Shown here: positions 4,694 to 24,915 of the stretch, piece by piece
Position numbering within the stretch: position 1 is the stretch's first letter
How the letters are laid out: every line of letters begins with the position of its first letter
Assembly (NCBI RefSeq): GCF_001748285.1
Contig: NZ_BDGT01000012.1
Span: forward strand, 1 to 64,000
Source: Thermogemmatispora onikobensis
GTDB taxonomy: Bacteria; Chloroflexota; Ktedonobacteria; Ktedonobacterales; Ktedonobacteraceae
Direction of reading: 5' to 3'
Length of the DNA stretch: 64,000 bases
Notes under the pieces: generated by a model
Told to the model about the DNA's origin: nothing
The model's database searches: none
The model's input: the letters and a program-made list of their open reading frames with translations, nothing else
Program-made: the position numbers and the translations under genes

Positions 4694-6151
4694 CTACTGG
4701 CTCGGTGCCGTCAAGCCGCTGCCGTTCTGGGAAGGACCGCTCACAGGCAGCTCAGTCGGCATATTGATTGGATCAAAGAGCCGGTTCTGATCGGCGGGTG
4801 TGATATGGGTTGTTGGCAAGGCCCGGATCTCAAGGGACCAGTTCGAGAGAGCGTTGTCCTTCAGGGTCTGAAGGGTGCTCTTATCCAAGGCACGGGAAGG
4901 ATCGATCCCGAGGATCTGGACGATATGGTAAGAGCCATTCTCCATAATGATGGGGCTGATCTCATTGACAGTCCGGGCGGGGTCGAAGAGCCAGTTATCG
5001 ATGTAGGCTTGGCCCTCCTGATGGGCATACTGGCCGCGGGCCAGCCAGCCGAGGTAACCGCCCTTCGTATTGGTCGTCGTATCGACCGACTTCTGGCGAG
5101 CCAGAGTAGCGAAATCGGCGCCCTTCTTCAGCTGATCCAGGATCTTCTGGGCATCGGCCTTAGTACTGAGCGTTATGGTACGGGCCAGCACCTGGTATGT
5201 CGGCGACGTAATCTGCGAAGCCAGATAATTCTGCATATTGTCGCGGCGCAGCTTTAGCGCCATCATCTCATGCATATCGGCATCAGTGACGCTGTCCTGA
5301 GAGAGCATCTGCTGATAGCTGCGCGCGTACTGGCCTGATTTCGGCATATTGGCCTTCAGATCGTTAAGGGCACGCTCGACCTGAGCGGCGGTCGGCTCGA
5401 TGCGGGCGCGGATCGAGGCGGGCTGTGTTTGAAGCCACTCGCGGATCAGCTCATCATCCTGGAGCCAGGTCGCGCTATCGTTACCGATCTGGGACTGAGT
5501 GAAAGGACCTTGCTGCTCGAAAGGAATGGTATTTTGGGTCAGATCGTTCAGCTGGGATTGCAGCTTATCGTGCTGGGACTGAGCGTTAGCGTAAGCCTGC
5601 TTGGCCGCGTTCAGCTCCTTGGTCAGCTGAGTGCGCTGGGGACTGGAGCCAGCGGGTAACTTACTGAGTTGCTTATTGAGATCGTCGATCTGCTTGGAAG
5701 CGTTATTCATCGCCTGCTGTTGCTGAGCGATCTGCTTTTCGAGATTGGTGCGCTGGGCGAAGAGGCCATTTGGTCCGTAGAGCTTATTGATCTCCAACTG
5801 TGTCTGCAGGACCACCAGCTTGTGGTACTCGGACTGGGGGATGTCGTGGCCATTGACCGAGGTAATCGGCAAGCTTGGCACGATCACGTTGATGTTGATC
5901 CAGAAACCGATGAGAACGCCGACGATGGTGAGCAAGATAAGGACCGTGAGAGCCCAGGTAGCCCGAACGCGGATACGGTTTTTCTCGCTCTGAGAGAGGT
6001 GGCTACCCCAGCCGAAGATCAGGGGTTTGCCATCTCGTCGGGCCGCCACAAGGGCAGTCTGGCGGACATAGCGCCTGGACTTGGCCTTCTCCGGGCGGCT
6101 TGCTCGCGTTGACCGCTGGTTTTGGGGTTCACGCGCTGTTTGACTCGTCAT
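4694..6151 (-). CDS. Membrane-anchored SurA/PrsA-like parvulin peptidyl-prolyl isomerase
   Basis: Probable extracytoplasmic folding factor of 485 residues. A basic cytoplasmic N-terminus leads to one transmembrane segment (about 64-88). A SurA-like N-terminal region then carries a Gln-rich coiled coil, and a C-terminal parvulin domain contains GADFATLARQKSVD and the GGYLGWLARGQ segment typical of rotamase domains. The ATG at 6151 is preferred over an upstream in-frame start because a strong promoter lies at 6199-6227 and would exclude the longer form. It is the first gene of a likely operon with hemW and recJ. Which exported proteins it helps fold cannot be told from sequence. Confidence 0.82.
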   Translation of the reverse strand: MTSQTAREPQNQRSTRASRPEKAKSRRYVRQTALVAARRDGKPLIFGWGSHLSQSEKNRIRVRATWALTVLILLTIVGVLIGFWININVIVPSLPITSVNGHDIPQSEYHKLVVLQTQLEINKLYGPNGLFAQRTNLEKQIAQQQQAMNNASKQIDDLNKQLSKLPAGSSPQRTQLTKELNAAKQAYANAQSQHDKLQSQLNDLTQNTIPFEQQGPFTQSQIGNDSATWLQDDELIREWLQTQPASIRARIEPTAAQVERALNDLKANMPKSGQYARSYQQMLSQDSVTDADMHEMMALKLRRDNMQNYLASQITSPTYQVLARTITLSTKADAQKILDQLKKGADFATLARQKSVDTTTNTKGGYLGWLARGQYAHQEGQAYIDNWLFDPARTVNEISPIIMENGSYHIVQILGIDPSRALDKSTLQTLKDNALSNWSLEIRALPTTHITPADQNRLFDPINMPTELPVSGPSQNGSGLTAPSQ

Positions 6152-21436: not shown

Positions 21437-22576
21437 TTAGCTGAGCAGGTTGGCGATGGCAATGGCCTCCTGCTCGTCGAGATCGCCGCTGATGCGAATG
21501 CCGAGACCCTGCTCTTTCCAGGACAGGGTGGGGTTATCGCTGCCGGTTGAATAGGTCGCTGTAGTGCCGCGCAGGGTGAGCGTTGTGCCGCTGGGCAGCG
21601 GCTCGTTGGCCAGAGCCTTGCCTTCGAGGATCGAGAAGCTCTGGTCTCCTTTCAGATAATGGAGCACAAAGACCTGTCCACTGGCGGTCGAGAGCACATC
21701 GACACCCTCAAGCTGGTAATCGCTCTGCGAGGAGGGGATGCTCAGCAGATGGTAGCCGGCCAGTTGCTCCGCCTGGCCAAGGGTCAGCGTGCCGCTGGTG
21801 GGTGTGGCGCTGGCTTGCAGCAGCGGGGCCACCTGGGCATTGGCGGGTGGAGTGAAGCTAAAGAGACTGTCGGCCAGAGAGCGATTCAGCTCCAGCGTGG
21901 GCAGCTGCAAAGTCACCTGGGCGAAACCCTGTAGATTGAGAACCAGCTTGAGAGGGAGATCGCTGCTGCGATCCAGATAGACATCGCCGCTATAGTCGGG
22001 GCCAGCCGTGGCCGATTGCTGAGAAGTGACATGGACGATGGTAGCGCTGTGGCCGTCAACCGTCGCCGACTGCGGTGCCACCGTCGCCCGACTCTGGCTG
22101 AAGATAGGATCAATGAGGTTGAGCGTCAACTGATTGGCCGGGTTGGAACTGCTGCCGAAGAGCGCCGAGCCGTCCTGGCTGTTGACGTTCCCAGTGTAGA
22201 CAATATGGCGCACGGGATTATAAACCCAGAGCTTCCCCCCGTTGCTGACCGTCAGCTCGCCAACGGGAAAGTCACTCAGCGTCGAGCGCAGAATCAGACT
22301 GCGGCTCCTGGCCGGGGCTGCTTTCCAGATCTCGCTTGTCAACGTTCCCTGGTAGGTTTCGCCATCAATTTGAATGGTGACCACGGCGTGCAGTGTCCGC
22401 GCCGCCGTCAATTGCTGCTCACTCTGCTGTAGCAACTGTTGAGCATTTGCGCTGCTGGCGCTGGAAGACGTCGGCTGTTGGGTCTGGCCACTGTTGCAGG
22501 CAGCCAACAGGAGCAACATCACGGGCAAGAGCAAGAGAGAAACAGAGCAGCAGCATCTTCTCATGAGGGTAGACAT
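21437..22576 (-). CDS. Lipoprotein with LolA-like domain
   Basis: A 379-residue exported lipoprotein. The signal peptide ends in the lipobox LLAAC, with the lipid-bearing Cys27. The body resembles the LolA/LolB beta-sheet family seen in outer-leaflet lipoproteins of single-membrane bacteria. The last 100 residues resemble the DUF4367-type module found with anti-sigma and sporulation proteins; this is by eye only. The ATG at 22576 follows GGAGAGG. A dyad and -35-like box lie 33-55 bp upstream. It is downstream of the sigma/Rieske/YtkA group but has its own control region. Confidence 0.68.
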   Translation of the reverse strand: MSTLMRRCCCSVSLLLLPVMLLLLAACNSGQTQQPTSSSASSANAQQLLQQSEQQLTAARTLHAVVTIQIDGETYQGTLTSEIWKAAPARSRSLILRSTLSDFPVGELTVSNGGKLWVYNPVRHIVYTGNVNSQDGSALFGSSSNPANQLTLNLIDPIFSQSRATVAPQSATVDGHSATIVHVTSQQSATAGPDYSGDVYLDRSSDLPLKLVLNLQGFAQVTLQLPTLELNRSLADSLFSFTPPANAQVAPLLQASATPTSGTLTLGQAEQLAGYHLLSIPSSQSDYQLEGVDVLSTASGQVFVLHYLKGDQSFSILEGKALANEPLPSGTTLTLRGTTATYSTGSDNPTLSWKEQGLGIRISGDLDEQEAIAIANLLS

Positions 22577-22608
22577 AGAGAGCCTCTCCGTTGCAGAATG
22601 ATACATCT

Positions 22609-22781: not shown

Positions 22782-23213
22782 TTAGTGGGTAGTGACCTGG
22801 AACAGGGCTGCTGCCTCTGGGTGGGCAGTGCGCTGGATAGTCACGCGCAGCTGCCAGAGGCCACTCATGGCGAACTGCAGGCGTGCGCGATAGAGGCCAT
22901 CGCTGCTCAGGCGGGCGGTGACCGTGGGCAGGCCCATATTCATCTCCGGCATCGTGCTTTCTACCTGGACACGGGCATCGTTGACAAGCGAGCCGCTGGC
23001 GGCTTCGGCAATGCGCAAAGCGATAGTAGCTGGTTGGGTACTGAGCGGCGGGTCGGGGCTCAGCTGGAGAGTGACCTCATAAAGGCCGGCGCGTGCCTGC
23101 TGTGACCCTGACTCCGCTGGGGCTGGTGGAATGCTGGCCACCAGGCCCCCCAGCCAGGTCAACAGGGCCAGGAAAAGCAGGCCGAGCAGAATAACGAGCA
23201 GATTACGTCTCAT
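22782..23213 (-). CDS. YtkA/FixH-domain membrane protein
   Basis: A 143-residue protein: one N-terminal membrane anchor (about 4-27), then an exported beta-rich domain of the YtkA/FixH type. Visible hallmarks are ESTMPEMNMG, a Met-rich segment common in this family, and DGLYRARLQFAMSGLWQLRV. Relatives are found with copper and oxidase-assembly proteins. It starts 15 nt after the Rieske gene in the same direction, so the two are almost surely co-transcribed. Function is inferred from family only. Confidence 0.72.
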   Translation of the reverse strand: MRRNLLVILLGLLFLALLTWLGGLVASIPPAPAESGSQQARAGLYEVTLQLSPDPPLSTQPATIALRIAEAASGSLVNDARVQVESTMPEMNMGLPTVTARLSSDGLYRARLQFAMSGLWQLRVTIQRTAHPEAAALFQVTTH

Positions 23214-23228
23214 TCTCTTTGCAGACCC

Positions 23229-24176
23229 TCAAGAAGGTGGCGCGCTTACGGGAATCCTCACGTAGATCTTACCATCCTCGATGCGGATGTCAAGCCGCGG
23301 CAGAGGGGCCAGATAGCGCAGGTGCCCGGCGGTCGGATCTGCCGCCCCGCTCGCGGTGAAGACGCCGCCGTGGCAGGGACAATGGAACTTGCCATCGCTC
23401 TCCTGCCACTCGACCAGGCAGCCCATATGTGTACAGGCTGCGGAGAAAGCGATGATCTCCTCTCCGGTGGAGGGGGTCTCAGTCCCATCGCCGGCTGGCC
23501 AGTTCCCGCCACCGTACTCGTTGCTCGTGCTGGGGCCGTGCTCCTGACGAATCACATAGCCAGCGATGGTCTCGGTGACAAAGCGCACGGGGCGCTTGCC
23601 GAGGGCCGAGACCTCAGCAACGAAGTGCCAGCGCGATGGAACCTCGGCCCCGATCAGAGCCGGATAGGCTGGGGGCAGGGGCGTGCCAGTTCCCACACTC
23701 GTGCTGGTAGGACTCGGGGCGGTCTGACCTGTCGCCCCATGAGGGCCGCCGCTGGCCTCCTGAAGGGCGCGGTCAAGCCCAACGCCAGCGACGAGGGAGG
23801 CCGCGGCCACCGCGCTACCGGCCAGGAGACGACGACGCGAGAGCCGTGAGCGTCTCTCTCCAGCCGCTGAGGAAGAGAGGGATGGAGCAGCGGCGGGCAA
23901 GGTCGCTGGCTCTGTGGCCTCCTCTGACTCGCCCGGATCTTCCCCGGAAGCGGCCAGCTCACGCTCCAGGCGCGCGCGCAGCTCGGCCACAAACTCCGGG
24001 CGAGGTTCTGCGGCGCCGGGAGCTGCTGCACGCAAGAGCGCCGCCAAGCGATAGAGCCGCGCCTGGGTCGGCGTCAACTCCGCGGACAGCGGCGGCCTGC
24101 GGTCCTCCTGCAATGCTGCAAGATAGTGCTCCAGCTCCAGATAGTCCTCAAAGCGTTCCTGGTCTCCCTCGGGCAT
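23229..24176 (-). CDS. Rieske [2Fe-2S] protein with N-terminal anti-sigma-like domain
   Basis: A 315-residue protein. Residues 1-75 are helical and charged, with the YRLAALLRA and EFVAELRARLEREL pattern common in cytoplasmic heads of Chloroflexota and actinobacterial anti-sigma factors (by eye). An acidic linker leads to SRRRLL (113-118), a twin-arginine motif followed by a hydrophobic segment (about 118-136), then a Pro/Thr linker and an exported Rieske domain (about 180-312). The ligands are C248 and H250 (CTHMGC) and C268 and H269 (CPCHG). C253 and C266 would form the bc1-type disulfide. It is 57 nt downstream of an ECF sigma gene. No cytochrome b gene lies near, so a bc1/b6f role is less likely here than redox sensing. 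Confidence 0.78.
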   Translation of the reverse strand: MPEGDQERFEDYLELEHYLAALQEDRRPPLSAELTPTQARLYRLAALLRAAAPGAAEPRPEFVAELRARLERELAASGEDPGESEEATEPATLPAAAPSLSSSAAGERRSRLSRRRLLAGSAVAAASLVAGVGLDRALQEASGGPHGATGQTAPSPTSTSVGTGTPLPPAYPALIGAEVPSRWHFVAEVSALGKRPVRFVTETIAGYVIRQEHGPSTSNEYGGGNWPAGDGTETPSTGEEIIAFSAACTHMGCLVEWQESDGKFHCPCHGGVFTASGAADPTAGHLRYLAPLPRLDIRIEDGKIYVRIPVSAPPS

Positions 24177-24233
24177 AAACCTCGCCTCCCTTCCGGTCCG
24201 TTACCTTTACTGGATGCCTCCAGACTCGTCAGG

Positions 24234-24806
24234 TTAGCCTGTCACAACGCTCTCTAATTCGGCGGCGCGCTTGAGCGCCCGGAATTGAAGCACCTTCACG
24301 TTGGCCTCACTCAACCCCAGGCGGAGGGCGGTCTCCTTAATCGAGAGATTCAAAAGGAAACGGCAGATCAAGACCTCGCGGTAATGGGCGGGAAGAGCCT
24401 GCAGGATACGCTGGACGCGCTCAACTGGCCGCTCATCGGGGCACGAGAGCGACAACTCCTCGCTTGGTCCCTGCCAGCCAGCATCGAGCAGCTCCTCCAG
24501 AGAATCGAGAGGGAAGCGATAATGATTGCGCCAGTAGTCAGCCAGCGTGGTCCTGGCAACCTGGAAGAGCCAGCGCTGCCAGCTCGGACTGCCAGCGCCG
24601 CGCTCGCTGCTCAGCATGCGCACGGCTTTCATGAAGATCTGCGAGGTCAGGTCCTCGGCCTCTTCACGATTGCCGACTTTGCTATAGACATAGCGATAGA
24701 TGAGATGGAGGTTATCCTCATAGAAGCGTTGAAATGCTTGCACATCCACGGCATCCTGTCCTGTCGCAAGATTTCGCTCCTGATTGCTCTGGCGTGCAAT
24801 ATTCAC
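24234..24806 (-). CDS. ECF-type RNA polymerase sigma factor
   Basis: A 190-residue sigma-70-family factor with regions 2 and 4 only. Region 2 includes FYEDNLHLIYRYVYSKVG and EEAEDLTSQIFMKAV. Region 4 includes LPAHYREVLICRFL and SIKETALRLGLSEANVKV. I chose a GTG at 24806 because AGGAGG lies 6 nt upstream. A longer reading from 24848 would translate the ribosome site. It is the first gene of a group with the Rieske and YtkA/FixH proteins and is preceded by two copies of an 18-bp repeat. This is the usual place for a sigma factor that controls its own operon. Confidence 0.88.
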   Translation of the reverse strand: MNIARQSNQERNLATGQDAVDVQAFQRFYEDNLHLIYRYVYSKVGNREEAEDLTSQIFMKAVRMLSSERGAGSPSWQRWLFQVARTTLADYWRNHYRFPLDSLEELLDAGWQGPSEELSLSCPDERPVERVQRILQALPAHYREVLICRFLLNLSIKETALRLGLSEANVKVLQFRALKRAAELESVVTG

Positions 24807-24853: not shown

Positions 24854-24915
24854 TACGTCGGTCAGTTACAGTCTATCTCAGAGAATCACCTACCTATTAC
24901 GTCAGTGGGTTACAG
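24854..24915 (-). repeat. Two 18-bp direct repeats upstream of the ECF sigma gene
   Basis: On the minus strand CTGTAACCCACTGACGTA (24915-24898) and CTGTAACTGACCGACGTA (24871-24854). They share CTGTAAC and GACGTA with 5 variable bases between, and are 44 bp apart. They lie 48-110 bp before the start codon. TGTAAC resembles ECF -35 elements, but CGTA comes only 7 bp later, too close for a -10. A protein-binding site is therefore more likely. Confidence 0.55.

Follow-up and report, generated by a model that had tools for sequence, protein, structure and literature searches.

The window, a stretch of 64,000 nucleotides from Thermogemmatispora onikobensis, encodes an ECF sigma factor next to a head-anchor-Rieske protein, and the two probably form a sigma/membrane anti-sigma pair with a Rieske [2Fe-2S] domain outside the cytoplasm, in which a signal from outside would free the sigma factor. 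The pair recurs across Chloroflexota, the head of the Rieske protein diverges in step with the sigma factor and is in places fused to a degenerate one, and a short DNA element located before the ECF gene is also found before cupredoxin genes.

An ECF sigma factor gene and a Rieske gene in one operon

The gene order given in an earlier note on this DNA was confirmed, with the ECF gene, the Rieske gene 57 nt further on and a YtkA-like gene after another 15 nt, all on the minus strand and in agreement with the open reading frame positions (Table 1). Pfam detects Sigma70_r2 (PF04542) and r4_2 (PF08281) above cut-off and no other sigma regions, which places the sigma factor among the ECF type. Its best NCBIfam match is the BldN family, TIGR02952, although the score of 116.4 bits stays below the cut-off of 206.45, and the closest solved sigma chain is 6dxo_A (E 2.5e-18), namely BldN as solved together with RsbN, a membrane anti-sigma factor. 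The linker between regions 2 and 4 carries a SLEELLDAGWQGP motif, which is conserved across Ktedonobacteria and unusual in an ECF linker.

The genes that follow vary. In many Ktedonobacteria the YtkA-like gene takes third place in the operon, adjoining in 17 loci and also in some other families, and in other Chloroflexota the Rieske gene is sometimes followed by a gene for a cupredoxin, a Lipoprotein_15 or a DUF326 protein; copper-storage proteins are among the DUF326 proteins. The conserved neighbouring lipoprotein, with its weak LolA similarity, may belong to the ECF/Rieske system. RseB, which regulates another anti-sigma factor, resembles LolA, and by analogy a signalling role of the lipoprotein is possible.

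Table 1 Features of the ECF/Rieske locus, in positions of the window
Feature	Position	Strand	Basis
Conserved element TGTAACCCACTGACGTA, first copy	24898..24914	-	upstream of ECF gene
Second direct copy TGTAACTGACCGACGTA	24854..24870	-	44 bp further toward ECF gene
ECF sigma factor gene, BldN-like	24234..24806	-	GTG start behind AGGAGG; TIGR02952 below cut-off; 6dxo_A
Head-anchor-Rieske protein, putative anti-sigma factor, 315 aa	23229..24176	-	Pfam, homologues, AlphaFold2, divergence
Head, residues 1-77, putative anti-sigma domain	23946..24176	-	three predicted helices; no Pfam/PDB match
Twin-arginine motif SRRR, residues 113-116	23829..23840	-	RR in 71/73 homologues
Hydrophobic anchor, residues 117-140	23757..23828	-	sequence and AlphaFold2
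Rieske domain, residues 181-309	23250..23636	-	Pfam, AlphaFold2, Foldseek
Cluster boxes CTHMGC ... CPCH, residues 248-269	23370..23435	-	four ligands and both Cys in 71/73 homologues
YtkA-like membrane protein gene	22782..23213	-	PF13115, E 8e-14
Lipoprotein, weak LolA/DUF4367/DUF2092 similarity	21437..22606	-	conserved neighbour

A head, a Tat-type anchor and a complete Rieske domain

The AlphaFold2 model of the Rieske protein, with a mean pLDDT of only 56 and the Rieske part alone confident, comprises helices at residues 3-23, 36-51 and 60-77 in the head and 114-141 in the anchor, followed by the strands of the Rieske domain. The sole clearly hydrophobic stretch of the chain spans residues 117-135 (Kyte-Doolittle 1.7 over 19 residues), and Tat signals are similarly weak in hydrophobicity. 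An S/T-R-R-x-hydrophobic motif stands before the anchor, so that export is predicted; the Tat profile TIGR01409 scores 16.4 bits, slightly under its cut-off of 16.7, and Tat is known to export Rieske proteins in bacteria. We infer that Tat exports the Rieske domain, which the anchor then retains, and from Tat topology the head would lie in the cytoplasm.

The Rieske domain itself scores 32.1 bits in Pfam against a cut-off of 20.3. Its cluster ligands (C248, H250, C266 and H269) and the disulfide pair C253/C268 are all in place, as required of a bc-type Rieske protein. The sequence thus bears out what had been read from it before: an SRRR motif, a single membrane segment, four Rieske ligands and both disulfide cysteines. 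In two of the paired Rieske proteins (L022 and L308), Asp replaces the first of the His ligands (CTDMGC and CSDLPC). A Foldseek search with the AlphaFold2 model matched the Chlorobaculum Rieske protein, PetC3 and the small subunit of arsenite oxidase.

The proteins closest to this domain are the Rieske proteins of b6f/bc complexes and of arsenite oxidase, which would suit an alternative Rieske subunit in a complex of the cytochrome bc type; we find this reading hardly credible and rejected it. The genome, which is 95% complete, has one detectable cytochrome b, whose operon also encodes a Rieske protein of its own and a cytochrome c with a fused copper-protein-like domain. The Rieske protein of that operon has no such head, and the head-anchor-Rieske gene has a constant ECF neighbour. 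The earlier note had regarded a cytochrome b partner elsewhere as one finding that would speak against its interpretation; the sole cytochrome b is already served by its own Rieske protein.

The pair recurs across Chloroflexota

We found an ECF gene of the same group directly upstream of the head-anchor-Rieske gene in 73 of 73 loci scored across Chloroflexota, and the fusion beside ECF genes that the earlier note proposed to look for in this phylum is therefore present phylum-wide. Within the family, 24 of 29 genomes encode full-length homologues, and the ECF gene lies immediately upstream at every locus (25/25). A head-only profile matched 38 of the 47 genomes of the class, and the named organisms with the system comprise, among others, Thermogemmatispora, Ktedonobacter racemifer, Dictyobacter and Ktedonosporobacter. 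All 13 head matches examined in the class outside the family belong to ECF and head-anchor-Rieske pairs, and so does that of one further genome of the class (G030), whose head was missed by the first profile. A broader head profile gave matches in 64 of 251 genomes of the phylum. When 400 Chloroflexota genomes were sampled, 20 of the best matches outside the class were fetched, revealing ECF pairs in every case (20/20), often with overlapping genes. Since full-length homologues and the adjacent ECF gene recur in the family, the class and the phylum, the pair is not a product of chance.

The other Rieske proteins of the window's genome include none with the head or with an adjacent ECF gene of this group, and the same applies to the Rieske matches from other phyla obtained in a public genome scan with Ktedonobacterial peptide patterns. 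The literature yielded no account of a layout of ECF, Rieske and anti-sigma factor, which we provisionally consider undescribed; a mention in the 2021 ECF reclassification or in the RsbN structure paper is possible.

The head as a candidate new anti-sigma domain

Sequence comparison provides good evidence that the head is an anti-sigma domain. In the loci examined, a head and a Rieske domain joined in one protein were never seen without an ECF gene, and head homologues adjoin sigma genes, where the earlier note had allowed for homologues confined to proteins without sigma partners. Among 63 non-redundant pairs, the partial correlation of divergence was 0.62 between sigma factor and head vs 0.27 between sigma factor and Rieske domain, and the head exceeded the Rieske domain in 500 of 500 subsamples, with the caveat that shared ancestry can inflate distance correlations. 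This tracking is suggestive of a contact between head and sigma factor.

In addition, two genomes of one family encode a degenerate ECF-like sigma factor whose C-terminus is fused to a head (L301, 3031-4155, minus strand; L302, 995-1747, plus strand), in which region 4 is still recognised at E 4e-6 and 4e-5. The fusion gene directly precedes an ordinary ECF and Rieske pair, and a plain second Rieske protein and a Lipoprotein_15 gene are encoded downstream. The constant pairing, the head that tracks sigma divergence and these head-sigma fusions uphold, on computational grounds, the anti-sigma part of the earlier interpretation.

The head also occurs without a Rieske domain. One locus (L315) has a head-anchor protein of this kind after an ECF gene, with a weak head match (2e-5), and open reading frames of 78-123 aa with a head were observed at L313:2375-2608 (-), L306:2060-2428 (+) and L314:2293-2532 (+), the first of which is flanked by the ECF and Rieske genes.

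Searches of the head against Pfam returned no match, no class I domain and no zinc motif, and searches against PDB sequences and with Foldseek returned no match to any known anti-sigma domain; the head model consists of three short helices at low confidence (pLDDT 68). As homology is supported by neither sequence nor fold comparison, we do not assign the head to a known anti-sigma class, and it stands as a candidate new anti-sigma domain family.

A short-spaced DNA element may link the pair to copper proteins

The two direct copies of the element YGTAAC-N6/7-CGTA upstream of the ECF gene (Table 1), which go unmentioned in the earlier note, are part of a wider pattern. The second copy is exact or has one change in 5 of 6 Thermogemmatispora genomes, and the window contains 3 exact occurrences of GTAAC-N7-CGTA vs 0.04 expected. 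Across the class, the element lies upstream of the ECF gene in 37 of 37 loci with enough upstream sequence, near-identical species counted. At 21 further loci it was exact in 12 and read GTAAC-N7-GGTA in four, and the columns beyond both boxes hold little information. The third exact occurrence in the window, at 5054-5069 on the plus strand, does not have the preceding Y. The second copy is inverted in two Dictyobacter loci (L089 and L020), and in L089 it faces a divergent lipoprotein gene.

In Thermogemmatispora, the N7 form occurs only 3-7 times per genome (reversed control, 18-34). In 6/6 genomes it lies some 100 bp upstream of a Lipoprotein_15 gene, and in 5/6 it precedes a cupredoxin gene, the sixth genome having the N6 form before its cupredoxin gene; the genome of the window has only four PF00127 genes. 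In other genera, where sites were chosen by likeness to the consensus, some of the strongest precede cupredoxin (four) and Lipoprotein_15 (two) genes. One site (L205; G002:C3:15750, plus strand) precedes the gene of a twin-arginine protein that is exported and weakly matches Ferritin_2. A chance motif was considered and rejected, as the element is rare, at 4-7 occurrences in a Thermogemmatispora genome, and directional, recurs before orthologous genes, and is not present in the sequence fetched around any of the other 16 ECF-like genes of the genome. The pair seems to control secreted copper electron carriers.

The same element before the ECF operon and before cupredoxin genes would also fit a Rieske protein that is not an inhibitor but an electron carrier, a product of the regulon working with cupredoxins, with the sigma factor controlled in some other way. 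A Rieske-cupredoxin chain is chemically plausible, but this reading leaves unexplained why the head is conserved and tracks the sigma factor and why sigma-head fusions exist, and we regard it as improbable.

To our knowledge, every ECF promoter has a spacer 9-10 bp longer than that of the element, and the same difference separates it from the BldN promoter, CGTAAC-N16-CGTTGA (PMC2375139), which its halves match. A BldN-type N16 promoter was sought but did not emerge as a conserved feature, nor does a conserved -10 occur at the usual distance. Because the spacer is too short, binding of the sigma factor to the element is not assured, and the element may be either a promoter with unusually close boxes or a sequence bound by another regulator. 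Its spacing poses a separate and sharply testable puzzle of promoter geometry.

A proposed model for redox signalling at the cell surface

In the mechanism that we favour, the head would stay in the cytoplasm and hold the BldN-like sigma factor. The Rieske domain would receive its cluster inside the cell and then be exported by Tat and retained by the anchor. A change outside, be it in redox state, by loss of the cluster or at the Cys253-Cys268 disulfide, would alter the Rieske protein or expose it to proteolysis and so free the sigma factor, which would transcribe its own operon and copper redox lipoproteins via the YGTAAC-N6/7-CGTA element. Redox sensing by the cluster is inferred, as are the cytoplasmic head, Tat export and the holding of the sigma factor, and would be compatible with the near-complete conservation of the ligands and with a putative copper redox regulon.

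The head could also be an anti-sigma domain attached to a Rieske domain that does not sense, serving as a structural or electron-transfer module or reporting failed export or a missing cluster, with the signal arising elsewhere, such as from copper or the YtkA protein. Consistent with this are the copper-linked regulon and neighbours, the two members that keep their ECF pairing despite having lost a His ligand, and the head and anchor protein of L315, which adjoins an ECF gene and has no Rieske domain at all. The four ligands and two cysteines are nevertheless kept near-completely throughout the phylum, which argues that the cluster is needed, and we consider a non-sensing Rieske domain rather unlikely. 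More tentatively than the sensor mechanism itself, we propose that these pairs might represent a phylum-wide ECF class, defined by a Tat-exported Rieske domain as redox or copper sensor, a new anti-sigma domain, promoters with 6-7 bp spacers and a regulon of blue-copper carriers.

The iron-sulfur and zinc anti-sigma factors that we know of all read redox state inside the cell. The Rieske domain would instead sense it on the outside, where the respiratory chain or exported copper proteins act, and cluster assembly would be tied to signalling through export by Tat. This points to an undescribed mode of redox sensing at the cell surface, which is testable because the pair is present in cultured Ktedonobacter, Dictyobacter and Thermogemmatispora.

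Comparison with known systems

The Rieske proteins of bc1 and b6f complexes share the Tat-type anchor, the CTHxGC...CPCH boxes and the disulfide pair with the protein described here, which differs in its extra 77-residue head, its ECF partner and its lack of a cytochrome b partner. Class I membrane anti-sigma factors (RseA, RsiW and RskA) adjoin their ECF gene and have one membrane segment and an N-terminal helical domain inside the cell, according to a passage of PMC7406223. The Rieske protein is likewise adjacent to an ECF gene and has one membrane segment and an N-terminal helical domain, presumably inside; in contrast to class I, its head has no class I domain or zinc motif, its anchor is of the Tat type and its putative sensor is a Rieske domain.

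The closest parallel on the sigma side is the class III pair of sigma BldN and RsbN from Streptomyces (PDB 6dxo), in which BldN is the nearest solved sigma factor. The RsbN anti-sigma domain consists of three helices, in a passage of PMC7406223 that swaps the names BldN and RsbN, and three helices are also predicted for the head. The head has no sequence or fold match in PDB searches, however, and only here is there a Rieske domain outside. A similarly partial likeness is seen between the BldN promoter and the element: the halves CGTAAC and CGTT of the promoter (PMC2375139) resemble those of the element, whereas the spacers are 16 bp there and 6-7 bp here.

The literature searched revealed no anti-sigma factor that carries a Rieske cluster on the outer side of the membrane. 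Iron-sulfur anti-sigma factors do have a precedent in RsmA and RshA, which contain a [2Fe-2S] cluster (PMC3427169); their cluster is held by Cys ligands in the anti-sigma protein itself and is neither of the Rieske type nor outside the membrane, as the cluster of the Chloroflexota pair would be.
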